This document shows, in pieces, positions 53,601-63,720 of a DNA stretch of 64,000 nt. Numbering within the stretch: position 1 is the first letter of the stretch; every line of letters begins with the position of its first letter. The DNA is from Faecalibacillus intestinalis (lineage in GTDB: Bacteria > Bacillota_I > Bacilli_A > Erysipelotrichales > Coprobacillaceae), in NCBI RefSeq assembly GCF_003024685.1, contig NZ_PYLQ01000008.1:1-64000 (forward strand), written 5' to 3'. The notes beneath the pieces are model-generated. The model made no database searches, was not told the origin of the DNA, and saw only the letters and a list, made by a program, of their open reading frames with translations. Made by a program: the position numbers and the translations under genes.

Positions 53601-54261
53601 CAAGACAAAAAGAAAGTATTCAATCTTTTAGAATATATTATTTATTGGTCTTTATTTTATTAGTTATAGGAGCAATATTGATTCAAAGTTTCTTTGCTAA
53701 ACAGATAACTTTTCTTATTCAAAAAGAAATACAAGCTTTTGAACAAATCAAACGTACACAAGACTATTCAATTAGATTAGAAATCAATCAAAAAGATGAA
53801 TTTAGTAAACTTGCTATAAGTATTAATGAATTATTAGATTACATAGAAAAAGAAAAAAATCGAGATCAAGAAAAACAAAAAATATTGCAAGCTCAAGCAG
53901 AAAAAGATGGACAAATTACTTTAGGGTTTTTAGATATTGATCATTTTAAAGATTTTAATACTTATTTTGGACATCAAGTTGGAGATAAGGTACTTCAATT
54001 TGTATCGGCTGTTTTAAAAGAACAACTTAAAGGTAAAATAGGGCGTGTTGGTGGAGATGAATTTATTTTTTGTTTTGTTGGTAAAAAGAGATGAATAGAC
54101 TTCTTCAATTATTAAAAAGTGGTTTTTATGATAATAATAGTCAACAAACTATCTCAGTATCTTGCAGTATATGTATTGCTATTATGAAAGGTAAGGATGC
54201 AGATTATACAGAATTAATTCGTTTAGGAGATAAGTCTATGTATGAAGCAAAGGATGTATGA
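53595..54261 (+). pseudogene. Broken diguanylate cyclase (HAMP-GGDEF) gene
   Basis: The first frame carries a membrane helix (LVIGAILIQSFFAKQI), a HAMP-like linker and part of a GGDEF domain. After AQAEKDG about 30 residues of the usual domain are missing before FLDIDHFKDFNTYFGHQVG. RVGGDEFIFCF is intact, but the frame closes at 54094 and continues one frame over (MNRLLQLLK...GDKSMYEAKDV) to 54261. The original start and sensor are missing. It would not make c-di-GMP. Confidence 0.75.
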
Positions 54262-54863: not shown

Positions 54864-55664
54864 ATGGATACAAATTCAGTATTATCAATATTATTAAGAT
54901 ATGTTAATGGTCAATATAAAAAAGATACAAATTATGATATAGCACTAGCTCTTTTAACACATTATAGTGAGATTCCTAAAAAAACAATTAATGAAATATC
55001 AGATTTATGCTATGTTTCACCAGCATCAATTTCACGTTTTGTTAAACTTATTGGATTTCATTCTTTTCAAGAATTTAAAAACGCCTGTTTGAATACATTG
55101 GATATTTCAAAAACTGATTATTCTCCTAAAGTGATAAAAGCAAATAAAAATGATGTTAAGGAAATTCTTCAGCATTATACAAATCGTGTAATAAATAATA
55201 TTCAATTTTCTTATGATCATCTTGATTTTGAACAATTAGATCGTATTTGTTCTTATATACACGATAGTGATGACGTTTTAATTCTTGGATTAGAGTTTTC
55301 AACTTTACTAGCTCAACATGTACAAAATCGTTTTGCTTTAATGAATAAGTATATTTCTGTAGCTATTTCTAATGAAGAACAGTTAGAAAGTGCACATGAT
55401 TTAAAAGAAGGTAGTACTGTTATTATTTTAAGTGTTGAAGGTGGCTATTTTTATCGTCATAATGAAGTTATACAAATTCTTCTTGAAAAGAAAGTTAAAC
55501 TTGTTGTTTTAACAATGAATGAACATCAAAAAATGATAAATGAATTTATTGATCGAGAAGTTATTTTATGCAGTCAAGATAATACAAATACTGAATCTCG
55601 CATATCATTACTTTATACACTAGAAATAATCATCATGTATTATTGTATTTATTTTACTTATTAA
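54864..55664 (+). CDS. RpiR/MurR family transcriptional regulator
   Basis: A 266-residue regulator with an N-terminal HTH_6 (INEISDLCYVSPASISRFVKLIGFHSFQEFK) and SIS domain (VLILGLEFSTLLAQHVQNRF, STVIILSVEGGYFYRH). GAGGAG lies upstream. It is followed by a terminator and then by the PTS-GH1-GH3 operon in the same direction, which it probably controls in response to a sugar phosphate. Confidence 0.88.
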   Translation: MDTNSVLSILLRYVNGQYKKDTNYDIALALLTHYSEIPKKTINEISDLCYVSPASISRFVKLIGFHSFQEFKNACLNTLDISKTDYSPKVIKANKNDVKEILQHYTNRVINNIQFSYDHLDFEQLDRICSYIHDSDDVLILGLEFSTLLAQHVQNRFALMNKYISVAISNEEQLESAHDLKEGSTVIILSVEGGYFYRHNEVIQILLEKKVKLVVLTMNEHQKMINEFIDREVILCSQDNTNTESRISLLYTLEIIIMYYCIYFTY

Positions 55665-55800: not shown

Positions 55801-57090
55801 ATGGAAAAATTAATATCTATTATAGAAAAAACACTTGTTCCAGTTGCTAATAAATTATCACAAAACAAATATTTAAATGCAATTAGTGGTGGATGTATGT
55901 CTACTCTTGGAATAATCATGTTAGGTGCAGTTTTTACAATTTTAACGAATATTTCATGGCAACCTTATACAGATTTACTTGCTAAAACAGGGTTAGGTCA
56001 GTTATTTACAGGAGTTCAAAATGTTACTACAAATTTATTAGCTGTTTATATGGCTTTTGCAGTAGGATATCGTGGAGCAACTGTATTTGGAAATAAAAAA
56101 TATACTTTAACATCAGGTTTTTTATCTTTATTTGCTTATATGTTACTTATTCCATTAGATAGTACAACTTTAGCAGATAGTGGAATTAGTTTCTTTAATA
56201 CAGCTTATTTAGGAACAAAAGGAGTTTTCGTAGCATTACTTGCAGGACTAGTGGTTTCTAGATTATTAGCTTTAATTACTGAAAAAAATATTGTTATTAA
56301 ATTACCTGATTCTGTACCAGAAATGGTCAGTGAATCTTTATCATCTTTATTAGCAGGAGTTATCATTACCATTGTATTTTTAGTATTAAGAGCGTTATTT
56401 GCAATGACAGCTTATGGAAATGCAACTGATTGCATTTATACAATTATTCAAACACCGCTTCAATCATTAACAGGGAATTTACCTGCATTTATCATTATTA
56501 TTTTAATTGCACAATTATTATGGTTCTTTGGAATTCATGGATCAATGACAGTATTACCTATTTTATTTCCAATTTGGCTTAGTTATATTGGAGATAACAC
56601 AGCAGCCATGGCTGCAGGGAAAGCAATTCCTCATGTATTAAATATTGGATTATGGGATTTAGCTAATTTAGGTGGTTCAGGTGCTACAATTGGTCTTGTT
56701 ATTTTAATGTTCTTTAAAGCTAAAAGTGAACAATATAAATCATTTGGAAAACTAACATTACCATGTGGAATCTTTAGTGTTAATGAACCTGTTATTTTTG
56801 GATTACCAGTTATTTTAAATCCAATTATGCTTATTCCTTTTATTCTTTGTCCAATTGTTTTGGTTTGTTTAGGATATGCATTAATTCAATTTGGAATTGT
56901 GACCGCTCCAATTGGAATTTTAGGATTGGGTTCAATGCCACCACTTATTTCAGGAATTATGCAAGGTAGTTTATCTTGGGGTATTTTCCAATTAGTTGCT
57001 GTTGTTATTTCGATTATTATTTATTATCCATTCTTTAAAACACTTGATAATCAAGCATTAATGAATGAAAAAGGAGATCAACATGCATAA
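55801..57090 (+). CDS. PTS lactose/cellobiose-family EIIC permease
   Basis: A 429-residue membrane permease, third of its type in the window. Marks include PVANKLSQNKYLNAISGGCM, LWFFGIHGSMTV, LGGSGATIGLVIL and FSVNEPVIFGLPVILNP, ending YYPFFKTLDNQ. The stop overlaps the GH1 start by 8 bases. The GH1 and GH3 partners suggest a beta-glucoside. No EIIA or EIIB is nearby. Confidence 0.93.
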   Translation: MEKLISIIEKTLVPVANKLSQNKYLNAISGGCMSTLGIIMLGAVFTILTNISWQPYTDLLAKTGLGQLFTGVQNVTTNLLAVYMAFAVGYRGATVFGNKKYTLTSGFLSLFAYMLLIPLDSTTLADSGISFFNTAYLGTKGVFVALLAGLVVSRLLALITEKNIVIKLPDSVPEMVSESLSSLLAGVIITIVFLVLRALFAMTAYGNATDCIYTIIQTPLQSLTGNLPAFIIIILIAQLLWFFGIHGSMTVLPILFPIWLSYIGDNTAAMAAGKAIPHVLNIGLWDLANLGGSGATIGLVILMFFKAKSEQYKSFGKLTLPCGIFSVNEPVIFGLPVILNPIMLIPFILCPIVLVCLGYALIQFGIVTAPIGILGLGSMPPLISGIMQGSLSWGIFQLVAVVISIIIYYPFFKTLDNQALMNEKGDQHA

Positions 57091-58450
57091 ATTTTTATGG
57101 GGTGCTTCAACCAGTGGCTTTCAAGTAGAAGGAGGCTACAATTTAGGTGGTAAGGGACTTTCAACAACAGATGTACGTCATGTTAAAGAAGGTATTGCTG
57201 ATACAAAAGTAGCAAGTGATCATTATCATCATTTTAAAGAAGATATTCTTTTGATGAAAGAATTGGGATTAAAAGCATATCGTTTCTCTTTTTGTTGGGC
57301 AAGAATTATGCCAGATGGACATCATGTCAATCAAGAGGGTCTTGAATTTTATGATCAAATTATTCAATTATGTTTAGAAAATGATATTGAACCGATTCCA
57401 ACACTTTATCATTTTGAAATGCCTCAAGCATTAGTTGACGAATTTGGTGGTTGGAAAAGTAGAAAATGTATCGATGCTTTTGTTGAATATGCTAAAATCT
57501 GCTTTCAAAAATGGCAAGGTACGATCAAGCATTGGGTGACAATCAATGAACAATTGATTGCTATGGCAGCAAGTGATCTAAATGGAAATCATGAAAATGA
57601 TAAAGTATTACAAACAAAAAATATGTATCAAATGTCATATCATGCTTCATTAGCAGAAAAGAAAGTAATGAAATTACTTAAAGAAATTGATGTAAATGCA
57701 AAAATTGGTGTCGTAAATGCTGTTCAAAATGTTTATCCATATAGTTCATCTCCTGAAGATGTTTTAGCAGCAATGGATGCTGAGGAATTAATGATGTATA
57801 TGCTTTTAGATATGTCTGTTAAAGGAAGTTATTCATTTAGAGTAAAAAGTATTTTAAAGAATATGGATTGTTATCCAGTTCAAGAAAAAGGGGATGATGA
57901 AATTCTCAAATCTTCTAAACCAGATTTTATAGGAATAAACTATTATTCATCTATTTGTGTAAAAGAAAACAAAGAACATCGTATTAATTATCAATTACCG
58001 CCATTTTTTAGAAGTTCTATGTTTGAAGTTTGTCCTAATGAACATTTAAAGAAAACAAAATGGATGTCTAATGGAATAGATCCATTAGGAATTAGAAGTA
58101 TTATCTATAAAATTTATAATCGTTATGCTTTACCTATTATTATTACTGAAAATGGTATGGCTTATAGTGATGTATTAGAAAATAATAGAGTTCATGATAC
58201 TTATCGTATTGAATATCTTTCAGCCCATATTAAAGAAGTATTACGTGCAAAAGAAGAAGGATATCCTGTTTTTGGATATTGTCCATGGTCGTTTATTGAT
58301 GTTGTTAGTTCACACCAAGGTTTTTCAAAAAGATATGGTCTAGTTTATGTCAATCGCACAGATCAAGATATTATGGATTGTAAACGTTATAAGAAAGATT
58401 CTTTTTATTGGTATAAAGAAATTATTGAAAGAAATGGAGAAAATATATGA
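57083..58450 (+). CDS. GH1 family 6-phospho-beta-glucosidase
   Basis: A 455-residue cytoplasmic enzyme that cleaves phosphorylated beta-glucosides delivered by the PTS. FLWGASTSGFQVEGGYN is the GH1 start; the acid/base glutamate is in HWVTINEQ and the nucleophile in IIITENGMAYS. NEQ replaces the usual NEP. Start 57083 was chosen for its AAAGGAG site. ATGA overlap with the GH3 gene. Confidence 0.93.
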   Translation: MHKFLWGASTSGFQVEGGYNLGGKGLSTTDVRHVKEGIADTKVASDHYHHFKEDILLMKELGLKAYRFSFCWARIMPDGHHVNQEGLEFYDQIIQLCLENDIEPIPTLYHFEMPQALVDEFGGWKSRKCIDAFVEYAKICFQKWQGTIKHWVTINEQLIAMAASDLNGNHENDKVLQTKNMYQMSYHASLAEKKVMKLLKEIDVNAKIGVVNAVQNVYPYSSSPEDVLAAMDAEELMMYMLLDMSVKGSYSFRVKSILKNMDCYPVQEKGDDEILKSSKPDFIGINYYSSICVKENKEHRINYQLPPFFRSSMFEVCPNEHLKKTKWMSNGIDPLGIRSIIYKIYNRYALPIIITENGMAYSDVLENNRVHDTYRIEYLSAHIKEVLRAKEEGYPVFGYCPWSFIDVVSSHQGFSKRYGLVYVNRTDQDIMDCKRYKKDSFYWYKEIIERNGENI

Positions 58451-60135
58451 TAGATTTATCAACAAATCCATTTAATTTAAATGATGAACAAATTCAAAAA
58501 GTTACTAAGATATGTAATGATATGACATTAGATGAAAAAATAGGACAAATCTTTTGTCCTATAGGTAATGTTCAAGATGAAAAAGAAATAGACGAATTCA
58601 TTCAAAAATATAAACCAGGAGCAATGATGTATCGCCCACTTCCTTCAAAAGAGATAAAAAGAATTCATCATAGACTTCAAAGCCAAAGTAAAATACCATT
58701 ATTATTGGCTGCTAATTTAGAAAGTGGGGGAAATGGCATTTGCCTTGATGGTACATATTTTGCTAGACAAATGTCTGTTGCTGCTACTAATCAAGAAAAA
58801 TTTGCTTATGATTTAGGAATGATTGCAGGTAAAGAGGCACACGCAGTAGGATGTAACTGGTCATTTGCTCCTATTGTTGATATTGATTATAATTTTTTGA
58901 ATCCTATTACAAATATTAGAACTTATGGTTCAAATCAAGAAACAATTATTAAATTTGCTGATTGTCAAATTGAAGCACTTAAAGAAAACCATATTTTACC
59001 TTGTATTAAACACTTCCCAGGAGATGGCGTGGATATGAGAGATCAGCATCTATTAAGTAGTGTAAATGATTTAACCGTTAATAAGTGGAATAATAGTTAT
59101 GGAAAAATATATCAACATTTTATTAATAATGGAATAGGTTCAATCATGGTTGGGCATATCTTATTACCTCATTATATTAAAGAAATAAATCCTGAATGCA
59201 ATGAAGAAGACTATATGCCAGCAAGTTTATCAAAAGAGATTTTAACAGTGTTATTAAGAAACAAATTAGGATTTAATGGATTAGTTGTAACAGATGCTAC
59301 AGCAATGATTGGGTTTAATGTAGCTATGTCTAGATCAAAAGCATTACCTCTATGTATTGAAAGAGGTTGTGATATGATTTTATTTAATAAAAATATCGAT
59401 GAAGACTACATGTTTATAAAAAATGGTTTAAAAGAAGGACTTTTATCTCAAAAAAGATTAGATGAAGCTGTTTTAAGAATTATTGGTACAAAGATGGCAA
59501 ATGGCTTGTTTGATCATAGTGAGGTAGAAGAATCTGAAAAGATTGTAGGTTGTATCGAACATCAAAGCTTAGCAAAAGAATGCGCTAAACAAGCTATTAC
59601 TTTAGTTAAAGAACAAAAAGGTGTTTTACCATTAACAAGTGATAAATACAAAAAAATTAGAATATATAATCTAACTGATCAAGATAATGGTGGTTTTAAA
59701 GAAGAAGGAACACAACTATCACTAACCAATTTATTACAAAAAGAGGGATTCAATGTTTATGAATTTGATACAAAACGTTTAGATTTTCAAGAGGTATTTG
59801 AAGGTGGTATAAAAGATATCAAAGAAAAATGTGATCTAGTCATTTATGTAGCTAATTATGATACAGCGAGTAATCAAACGACAAGAAGAGTAGAATGGAT
59901 AAAATTAATGGCAGCAAATGCGCCATGGTTTATGCAAGATGTGCCAACTATTTTTGTCTCTCTTGCTAATCCATATCATCTTTTTGATGTACCAATGATA
60001 AAAACTTATATTAATTGTTATACAAACAATGATCAAACATTACAAGTTTTAGTGGATAAGCTTCTTGGAAAAGAAAAATTTGTTGGAAAAAGTCCAGTTG
60101 ATGTCTATTGTGGAAGGTGGGATACAAAAAGATGA
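58447..60135 (+). CDS. GH3 family glycosidase or phosphorylase, NagZ-like
   Basis: A 562-residue protein without signal peptide, so cytoplasmic. The N-terminal TIM barrel has KHFPGDGVDMRDQHLL, with the Asp-x-His dyad loop of NagZ-type enzymes, and the nucleophile in VVTDATAMIGF. A C-terminal GH3 sandwich domain follows (residues about 370-555). Some GH3 enzymes with this dyad use phosphate, giving sugar 1-phosphate. The next gene, beta-phosphoglucomutase, makes that plausible here. Substrate unknown. Confidence 0.85.
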   Translation: MIDLSTNPFNLNDEQIQKVTKICNDMTLDEKIGQIFCPIGNVQDEKEIDEFIQKYKPGAMMYRPLPSKEIKRIHHRLQSQSKIPLLLAANLESGGNGICLDGTYFARQMSVAATNQEKFAYDLGMIAGKEAHAVGCNWSFAPIVDIDYNFLNPITNIRTYGSNQETIIKFADCQIEALKENHILPCIKHFPGDGVDMRDQHLLSSVNDLTVNKWNNSYGKIYQHFINNGIGSIMVGHILLPHYIKEINPECNEEDYMPASLSKEILTVLLRNKLGFNGLVVTDATAMIGFNVAMSRSKALPLCIERGCDMILFNKNIDEDYMFIKNGLKEGLLSQKRLDEAVLRIIGTKMANGLFDHSEVEESEKIVGCIEHQSLAKECAKQAITLVKEQKGVLPLTSDKYKKIRIYNLTDQDNGGFKEEGTQLSLTNLLQKEGFNVYEFDTKRLDFQEVFEGGIKDIKEKCDLVIYVANYDTASNQTTRRVEWIKLMAANAPWFMQDVPTIFVSLANPYHLFDVPMIKTYINCYTNNDQTLQVLVDKLLGKEKFVGKSPVDVYCGRWDTKR

Positions 60136-60764
60136 AAGCCATTATTTTTGATTTAGATGGTGTTATTTGTTCAACAGATCATTATCATTATTTAGCTTGG
60201 AAATCTTTAGCAGATGATTTAAATATTCCTTTTGATGAAAAAGATAATGAACGTTTAAGAGGTGTTTCTAGAATGGAAAGTTTAGATATTATTTTAGAAA
60301 AATCAAAAGAAAACTATTCATTAAAAGAAAAAGAACAATTTGCTGATAGAAAAAATAAGCTTTATCAACAATATTTATTAAAAATGTCTACAAAAGATTT
60401 ATCTAAAGAAGTCAAAGAAACACTAGAACAATTAAGAAAAAAAGGATTAAAACTTGCTATTGGATCTTCAAGTAAAAATACAATGCTTATTTTAAAACAA
60501 CTAGGTTTAGATACTTTCTTTGATGCAATTAGCGATGGAAATTCTATTCAGTATTCAAAACCACATCCAGAGGTTTTCATGAAAGCTGCAGACTTGCTTA
60601 ATATTCCTTATAAAGAATGTTTAGTTGTAGAAGATGCAATTTCAGGATGTTTTGCTGCTAAAAGCGCTTCTATGAATGTAGCAGCTTTATCAAGTGCTTA
60701 TCATTGCACTTTTGCAGATTATCATTTAAATTGTTTTAAAGAATTGTTAGATATTAAGTATTAA
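60132..60764 (+). CDS. pgmB: Beta-phosphoglucomutase (HAD family)
   Basis: A 210-residue HAD phosphatase-fold mutase converting beta-glucose 1-phosphate to glucose 6-phosphate. IIFDLDGVICSTDHYHYLAWK gives the nucleophile Asp and cap start, RGVSRMESL the cap loop, IGSSSKN motif II, and VVEDAISG motif IV. ATG 60132 overlaps the GH3 stop. Such genes normally sit beside a phosphorylase, which bears on the function of the GH3 protein. Confidence 0.93.
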   Translation: MKAIIFDLDGVICSTDHYHYLAWKSLADDLNIPFDEKDNERLRGVSRMESLDIILEKSKENYSLKEKEQFADRKNKLYQQYLLKMSTKDLSKEVKETLEQLRKKGLKLAIGSSSKNTMLILKQLGLDTFFDAISDGNSIQYSKPHPEVFMKAADLLNIPYKECLVVEDAISGCFAAKSASMNVAALSSAYHCTFADYHLNCFKELLDIKY

Positions 60765-60866: not shown

Positions 60867-62856
60867 ATGAACCAATATAAAAACTTATTTGAATCAATAG
60901 AAATTAATGGATTAACATTAGAAAATAGATTAGTCATGACACCTATGGGAACTAATTTTGGTGAACAAAATGGAGAAATGAGTTTTCTACATATGGATTA
61001 TTATGAAAGAAGAGTTCAAGGAGGTTATGAGCTTATGATTGTTGAAAATGCTTGTGTGAAATATCCAGAGGGAAGTAATGGAACTACACAACTTAGAATA
61101 GATGCTGATAATTATATACCAAGACTTTATAAATTATGTGAGACAATTCATCAATATGGAGCTAAAATTGCTATCCAATTAAATCATGCAGGAGCAAGTG
61201 CCTTGGAAAGTCGTATTGGTATGCAACCTGTTTCTGCAAGTAATTTACCAAATAAAGAATGCGGTGCTATTCCAAGAAAATTATCAGTTGAGGAAATTTA
61301 TAGTATCGCTGATGATTATGCAACCTCAGCTAAAAGAGCTCAAACAATAGGTTTTGATGCCATTGAAATACATGCAGGACATTCATATCTAATTTCACAA
61401 TTTTTATCACCACTTACGAATGATAGAACGGATGAATTTGGTGGAAATATAGAAAATCGTGCACGTTTTGCTAAAATATTGTAGAAAAAGTAAGAAAAGT
61501 AGTCGGTCCACGTTTTCCTGTTATTATAAGAATTTCTGCAGATGAATTTTTAGATGGTGGTAATATATTAGAAGATAGCATTGAATGACTTAAATACTTT
61601 GTAAAAGAAGTTGATATGATTGATGTTTCTGCAGGATTAAGTGATTCAATTCATAAACCAATAGATGCTTCATATTATCCTGATGGATGGCGTCGTTATA
61701 TGGCACGTGCTATTAAAGAAGTTTTTCCTGATAAAATAGTCATGACATCAGGAGATATTCGCAATCCTCAAAGTGCTTGTGAAATTCTTGAAAACCAAGA
61801 TACTGATTTAATTGGAATGGGTCGTCAAACAATTGCAAATCCAAGTTGGTCTCATAAAGTCAAAACAGGAAAAATAGATGAAATTCGTCAATGTATTTCT
61901 TGTAATATTGGATGTGCAGGACATCGTATTGGATTAAATAGAACAATCCGTTGTACAGTTAATCCAGATGTTTTCTATGATGATTTTTATAAAAAACAAA
62001 AAGTAAATAAGAAAACGAATGTAGTAGTTATTGGTGGGGGAACAGCAGGACTTGAAGCAGCTTGTACAGCAAGTGAAGTAGGATGTACAACATTTTTAAT
62101 AGAAAAAGAAAAAACTTTAGGTGGCTTAGCTAGACAAATTAGTCAAATACCTGAAAAAACAAGAATAGCTCATTTTCCTAAGTATTTAGAAAAAAGAGCA
62201 GAAAAGTTACACGATTTATTTTAAAAGGAGTAGAAGCAAACGTTGATTTTGTTGATAATTTTAAATCTGATATTGTTGTTGCAACTGGTTCAAAATCAAT
62301 CCTTCCACCAATTAGTGGATTAAAGGAAAATATTGATTTAGATAATCATAAGGTAAGTAGTATTGATAAATTTATGAATCATCTAGATCTTTATCTAGAT
62401 GATACAACCAATAAAGAGATTGTTATTGTTGGTGGAGGAGCAGTAGGATTAGATGTTGCTGAATATTTTGCTAATAGAGGGGCATCACCTACTATTATTG
62501 AAATGATGAATCAAATTGGAAGAGATCTTGATCCTGTTACAAAATCACAAACAAAAGAAATGATGGAAAAACATCATGTAAAACAAATGACACAAACAAA
62601 ATTAAAAGAATTACATGAAAGCTATTTTATTGTAGAAAAAGAAAATCAAGAAATAAAAGTTCCATTTGATTATGGCTTTGTATGTTTAGGAATGAAAGCT
62701 TATAATCCACTTTATTTACAACTTAAAGATTATTATCAAGATAAAAATGGTGATGTTTTAGAAATTGGAGACTGTAAAAGAGCTAGACGTATTATTGAAG
62801 GAACACAAGAGGGAAGAAATATTATTCATTTATTAAAACAAAAAGAATTATTGTAG
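60867..62856 (+). pseudogene. Broken NADH:flavin oxidoreductase/old yellow enzyme family gene (BaiCD/2,4-dienoyl-CoA reductase type)
   Basis: The reconstructed protein of about 660 residues has an FMN TIM barrel (LVMTPMGTNFGEQNG, HAGHSYLISQFLSP, NDRTDEFGG), a cluster motif (CISCNIGC) and a C-terminal FAD/NAD half (VVVIGGGTAGLEAAC, IVIVGGGAVGLDVAEYFA). It is interrupted by a one-base deletion near 61480, an in-frame TGA at 61586-61588, and a second one-base deletion near 62219. AGGGA site precedes the ATG. It would have reduced an enoate-like substrate with NADH. Confidence 0.88.
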
Positions 62857-62870
62857 AGGGGAAAATAAAA

Positions 62871-63720
62871 ATGGCAGAAATTACTGAAAGAGTGACTGGA
62901 ATACAGAATTAATAGGACTTATTGCTAATCCTATTAGACATTCTAAAAGTCCAACAATGCATAATGAAGCATTTGCTAAGTTAGGATTAGATTATTGTTA
63001 TATGTGTTATGAAGTTAATCATGAAAATTTAGAGAAAACTGTAGAAGGTTTAAAGGCAATGAAAGTAAGAGGATGGAATGTCTCTATGCCTAATAAAACA
63101 ACAATTGTAAAGTATTTAGATCACTTAACACCTGTTGCTAAGATGGGCCAAGCAGTTAATACTGTTATTAATGATGATGGTGTTTTAACTGGTACTACGA
63201 CTGATGGCGTTGGTTTTATAAAAGTGTTAAAAGAAAGCAATCTTGATCCTATTGGTAAAAAAATAACGATTGTTGGGGCTGGTGGAGCAGTTACAGCTAT
63301 TGAAATACAAGCGGCTTTAGATGGTGTCGCAGAGATTTCTATTTTTAATAGAAAAGATGAATTTTATAATCAAGCTTTATTTAATTGTAAAAATATTAAT
63401 GAAAATACTCAATCAAAAGCTAAAGTTTTTGATTGAGCAGATCATGAAGCATTAAGAAAAGAAATGAATGAATCTTACTTATTTGTTAATGCAACAGGAG
63501 TAGGAATGAAACTTATTTAAGAAAAGATTTTTATGTAGCAGATACTGTTTATGCTCCTAAAGAAACTGAATTATTAAGAGTTGCTAGAAAATTTGGGGTT
63601 AAAAAAGCTATTAATGGCGAAGGTATGATGCTTTATCAAGGAGCAGAATCTTTTAAATTATGGACTGGAAAAGAAATGACGGTTGAACATATCAAAGATA
63701 TTTTAAATTTAGAGTTTTAA
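62871..63720 (+). pseudogene. Broken shikimate/quinate dehydrogenase (AroE family)
   Basis: MAEITERVTG starts after GAGGGG; a one-base deletion near 62902 shifts the frame. The body has LIGLIANPIRHSKSPTMHNEAFA, NVSMPNKTTIVKYLD and the NAD site GAGGAVTAIEIQAA. An in-frame TGA follows at 63434-63436 and a further one-base deletion near 63515. The end ETELLRVARKFG...GEGMMLYQGAESFKLWTG is complete. With three lesions the gene is dead. It is 14 bases from the oxidoreductase, so the two were an operon. Confidence 0.88.

Follow-up and report, generated by a model that had tools for sequence, protein, structure and literature searches.

The window analyzed here, the whole 64,000-nt stretch of DNA, contains an intact cluster on the plus strand in which a regulator and a PTS permease precede a GH1 enzyme, a GH3 protein and a beta-phosphoglucomutase (beta-PGM):

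54864..55664, + strand, RpiR/MurR-type regulator (HTH_6 + SIS)
55801..57090, + strand, PTS EIIC permease, lactose/cellobiose family
57065..58450, + strand, GH1 enzyme of the 6-phospho-beta-glycosidase type; shares 4 bp, at its stop codon, with the GH3 start
58447..60135, + strand, GH3 protein of 562 aa, predicted BglP-type retaining beta-glucoside phosphorylase; dyad D199/H201 with Q200 between, nucleophile D283
60132..60764, + strand, beta-phosphoglucomutase (beta-glucose 1-phosphate to glucose 6-phosphate); its ATG start and the GH3 stop codon share a 4-bp overlap

The GH1/GH3 and GH3/mutase junctions are both 4-bp ATGA overlaps, which typically point to translational coupling. The second junction bears out the overlap between GH3 and mutase genes described in the sequence-only reading, and takes the ATG at 60132 as the mutase start (the TTG start at 60108 in a mechanical ORF list gives an overlap of 28 bp). 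The RpiR/MurR-type protein probably regulates the cluster. The PTS EIIC gene has neither IIA nor IIB next to it; lac-type IIA genes are found elsewhere in the same genome. The GH1 enzyme has as its best solved relative 8b80, a putative 6-phospho-beta-galactobiosidase, and the C-terminal loop, SSHQGFSKRYG, lines up with that of 6-phospho-beta-glycosidases. Several genes around the cluster look damaged. Upstream, a diguanylate cyclase ORF (53645-54094) ends soon after its GGDEF motif and is probably truncated. Downstream, an old-yellow-enzyme/BaiCD-like flavoenzyme frame (60867-62856) is split into three fragments, each in a different frame, that match BaiCD 1-195, 286-434 and 501-638 of 642; it is a pseudogene or contains sequencing errors. 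A shikimate/quinate dehydrogenase-like ORF (62957-63436) spans only model positions 27-185 of 290 and looks broken at both ends.

The GH3 ORF itself is intact and matches Pfam Glyco_hydro_3 (PF00933; 5.4e-58). The protein begins MIDLSTNPFNLNDEQ... and has no visible signal peptide, in keeping with the cytoplasmic location proposed earlier. Its top match among all solved structures is 5vqd/5vqe, entered as 'beta-glucoside phosphorylase BglX' (that is, BglP; AUG44408.1), at E=4.3e-152 over residues 4-561; next come B. subtilis YbbD/NagZ entries, at 9e-43 to about 1e-42. Homology to BglP runs the full length, with 44.6% identity (246/551 aligned residues), the same RDQH loop and the same nucleophile position; at 45% identity to a solved structure, the fold is already settled. 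BglP, which came out of a metagenomic library, is a retaining beta-glucoside phosphorylase and one of only two characterized GH3 phosphorylases (PMC8950772).

In an alignment of 82 family members including BglP, 98 positions are conserved in at least 95% of members. The GH3 protein retains 97 of these, with L346I the sole departure, and BglP itself matches 93. D199 and H201, the His/Asp dyad found in place of a Glu/Asp acid-base, are invariant (82/82, BglP included), Q200 is kept in 80/82, and the catalytic nucleophile D283 of the GH3 N-terminal domain aligns in 81/82. The active-site loop, KHFPGDGVDMRDQHL, contains D199, Q200 and H201. The sequence-only reading had called this loop (DMRDQH) NagZ-type: the Asp-x-His is indeed present, as D199-Q200-H201, but the surrounding residues read FPGDG.D..D-Q-H, as in BglP. 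NagZ, YbbD and LpqI share the GH3 fold and the Asp-x-His dyad, whereas NagZ proteins, including YbbD and the genome's own NagZ-like protein, read FPGHGD....D-S-H. Both NagZ comparators differ from the GH3 protein at R63, N90, N156, D193, D196, Q200, N207 and R296. Structure matches and family positions thus group the protein with BglP rather than with NagZ. In a tree limited to BglP family members, BglP and a Pygmaiobacter sequence (L082) share a branch of their own, apart from the window enzyme. A Gln-to-Ser change in BglP reportedly swaps glucose for GlcNAc specificity; that Gln may correspond to Q200. Other GH3 matches in the genome were rejected as equivalents, one being a secreted NagZ-like protein with D-S-H (L002) and another only 26% identical (L003); the genome has only one BglP-like GH3.

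The gene that follows encodes a genuine beta-phosphoglucomutase. Its product scores 227.9 bits against the TIGR01990 beta-PGM model (cut-off 189.4), and its best solved relatives are beta-PGM entries, led by 3nas (E=2e-42), with which its catalytic Asp pair, Lys and Glu-Asp line up. It keeps the catalytic residues D7, D9, T15, H19, R47, K143, E167 and D168, which we take to correspond to D8, D10, T16, H20, R49, K145, E169 and D170 of the L. lactis enzyme; Lys45 of the latter is replaced by Arg43. In genome-wide checks made family by family, it was the only product above the TIGR01990 cut-off. In known modules, a GH65 maltose, trehalose or kojibiose phosphorylase is joined to a beta-PGM that turns beta-glucose 1-phosphate into glucose 6-phosphate. 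A family search of this genome found no GH65 protein, the usual source of beta-glucose 1-phosphate, and we discarded a GH65 enzyme as the source here.

Pairing with beta-PGM recurs across bacteria. The 80 best-matching BglP-like loci from a bacterial genome scan are mostly from Bacillota, phylogenetically clumped and not independent; among them, 53 have a beta-PGM gene in the examined flanks, on the same strand in all 53 cases, upstream or downstream of GH3 (32 within 300 bp, 44 within 3 kb). For loci with full 8-kb flanks, the count is 34 of 49. Linked loci span Lachnospiraceae, Oscillospiraceae, Bacillaceae, Acholeplasmatales, a Vibrio and a Propionibacteriaceae genome. GH65 was rejected as a general explanation of the linkage, as GH65-like neighbors (named by eye) occur at only 4 loci. 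The GH3 tree calls for nine or more changes in linkage along well-supported branches; the pairing has therefore been made or lost repeatedly. Where a BglP-like locus has no neighboring beta-PGM, 22 of 26 genomes have one elsewhere. The same holds for the clade closest to the window GH3 (Enterococcus, Listeria and Lactiplantibacillus; 98% support), where such a beta-PGM does not adjoin the gene and is found only elsewhere in the genome, a point against the reading proposed below. A control set of 14 genomes had 18 of 24 BglP-size GH3s (560-610 aa) within 8.5 kb of a beta-PGM, 13 of them adjacent, against 3/79 and 0/79 for other GH3s; these genomes were chosen for the linked pair, a choice that inflates the first figure and not the second.

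Among 392 sampled genomes of the phylum, 77 have a beta-PGM above the cut-off, the base rate against which the 22 of 26 above is read, and 4 have a BglP-like GH3; in three of these four (G000, G166 and G297), all beta-PGM-positive, a D-Q-H GH3 lies beside the beta-PGM, and the fourth (G126) has a D-H-H GH3 with a different HAD neighbor and no beta-PGM above the cut-off. Neither gene was found in 15 other sampled genomes of the window's family, so GH3 and beta-PGM were probably gained together.

In the family members at L031, L050 and L014, D-H-H replaces D-Q-H, perhaps reflecting a different sugar specificity, and L031 additionally lacks the conserved S475-N476 pair. At L014 (143-2829), L015 (593-3135), L073, L094 (13355-16086), L155 and L158, the GH3 gene lies beside one for an uncharacterized HAD protein of 270-300 aa, which takes the place of a beta-PGM. 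Some of these HAD-linked GH3s form a sister group of BglP-like proteins; others are more distant and carry a D-A-H loop. A search for a solved relative of the HAD protein found none. Among 20 further genomes that encode it, GH3 adjoins in 9, and in other genomes it sits among apparent uronate-catabolism genes (by eye). Its role may be that of a mutase or phosphatase acting on a different sugar 1-phosphate.

We observed directly how the genes are ordered, which family the protein belongs to, how its residues are conserved, and that the gene pair is conserved elsewhere and unique in this genome; the activity of the GH3 protein itself is predicted. The sequence-only reading held that the protein may be a beta-glucoside phosphorylase; its membership of the BglP family, the recurrent beta-PGM linkage, the presence of a single beta-PGM and the absence of GH65 from the family search raise this to very probably. 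We predict with considerable confidence that the protein is a BglP-type retaining beta-glucoside phosphorylase, located in the cytoplasm and coupled with beta-PGM. Its chemistry is modeled on published work on BglP and Nag3. Asp283 would form a covalent glucosyl-enzyme, and His201, paired with Asp199, would stand in for the usual carboxylate acid/base, so that phosphate rather than water could attack, yielding beta-glucose 1-phosphate and an aglycone or shortened sugar; the His/Asp dyad admits anionic phosphate to the active site (PMC8950772). The translationally coupled beta-PGM would then convert beta-glucose 1-phosphate to glucose 6-phosphate, so that glucose would join glycolysis without glucokinase or ATP.

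The Asp-x-His that first pointed to phosphorolysis contributes little to this conclusion. Some GH3 enzymes with the dyad are phosphorylases, as the sequence-only reading had it, but the argument is weak by itself because the dyad-bearing LpqI, RmNag3 and a Herbaspirillum enzyme hydrolyze, with a phosphate effect that is nil or small: LpqI had no phosphorylase activity under Nag3 conditions, and phosphate had little effect on RmNag3 (PMC6572805, PMC6987092). We therefore rejected the motif by itself as proof and base the conclusion on BglP membership and gene context. The same enzymes lend some weight to the best-placed alternative, which makes the GH3 protein a normal retaining beta-glucosidase that hydrolyzes with a His/Asp dyad while the mutase serves another pathway. 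We consider this improbable, as those hydrolases are NagZ-type N-acetylglucosaminidases whereas the window protein groups with BglP, and as the GH3/beta-PGM pair is conserved and coupled in a genome where no GH65 was found to supply beta-glucose 1-phosphate.

The window transporter counts against the phosphorylase prediction: it is a PTS permease, a type that imports sugars in 6-phosphorylated form, and the known substrates of BglP are unphosphorylated glucosides. Most beta-PGM-linked loci contain sugar ABC transporter genes and alpha-L-rhamnosidases, some with a rhamnulokinase-like gene (the ABC and kinase labels come from sequence clusters and visual inspection; Pfam confirmed GH78 and MFS_2). 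This suggests that rhamnosyl-beta-glucosides or other plant glycosides, imported unphosphorylated, are the substrates at linked loci. For the window, we infer substrate and division of labor with GH1 together, the most economical reading being that the PTS permease and GH1 6-phospho-beta-glucosidase probably process the phosphorylated glucosyl unit, while GH3 and mutase would process an unphosphorylated beta-glucosyl unit. The ATP saving is limited to glucosyl units that are unphosphorylated inside the cell, a restriction that the sequence-only reading did not weigh for a gene pair next to a PTS permease.

Alternatively, the GH3 protein might phosphorolyze PTS-delivered 6-phospho-beta-glucosides to beta-glucose 1,6-bisphosphate, which is both reaction intermediate and activator of beta-phosphoglucomutase, and so prime its partner. 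The EIIC permease of the operon is compatible with this, as are L034 (6529-10185) and L037 (Lactobacillus), where a BglP-like GH3 is flanked by PTS EIIBC and a probable EIIA gene and no other glycosidase was seen in the operons; these two loci are the sharpest case for asking whether BglP-like enzymes accept 6-phosphorylated glucosides. The idea nevertheless seems to us very unlikely: the PTS-linked members keep BglP's conserved positions, with one departure in 98 each for the window protein, L034 and L037, sugar ABC transporters and alpha-rhamnosidases, indicative of unphosphorylated substrates, accompany most beta-PGM-linked members, and the adjacent GH1 already resembles a 6-phospho enzyme. 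Least credible of all is a role in peptidoglycan recycling as a NagZ-type beta-N-acetylglucosaminidase or phosphorylase, for although Asp-x-His is present and the best NCBIfam match is beta-N-acetylhexosaminidase PRK05337, that match reaches only 102.7 bits against a cut-off of 207, Q200, D193, D196 and R63 are unlike NagZ, a secreted NagZ-like GH3 (L002, GHGDTATDSH) is already encoded in the genome, and the neighbors are glucoside rather than amino-sugar genes.

The predicted BglP-type phosphorylase and its mutase differ from each of the systems they resemble. BglP came from activity screening, whereas the window GH3 lies in an operon with PTS EIIC, GH1 and beta-PGM. Nag3 of Cellulomonas fimi is a retaining GH3 beta-N-acetylglucosaminide phosphorylase with a His/Asp dyad that releases beta-sugar 1-phosphates (PMC8950772); it prefers GlcNAc-anhydro-MurNAc, whereas the window protein groups with BglP in an alignment of BglP-like and NagZ proteins. 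GH65 modules, for which PMC8950772 cites 1998 work in L. sanfranciscensis, use alpha-glucosides with inversion, whereas the window GH3 would use beta-glucosides with retention, in a genome where no GH65 was found. The BglP enzyme type and its chemistry are already known, but its pairing with beta-PGM appears to have been little noted: a literature search, largely without subscription papers, turned up no paper that connects a GH3 phosphorylase with beta-phosphoglucomutase.

Many genes with the FPGDG..(R)DQH loop, likely annotated 'beta-glucosidase' or 'beta-N-acetylhexosaminidase', are predicted to encode phosphorylases. Only two GH3 phosphorylases are listed as characterized (PMC8950772), and BglP was drawn from a metagenomic screen. 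The recurrent pairing supplies a physiological role for the BglP-type enzyme, which is likely the ATP-sparing use of plant-type beta-glucosides by fermenting, often gut-associated bacteria.
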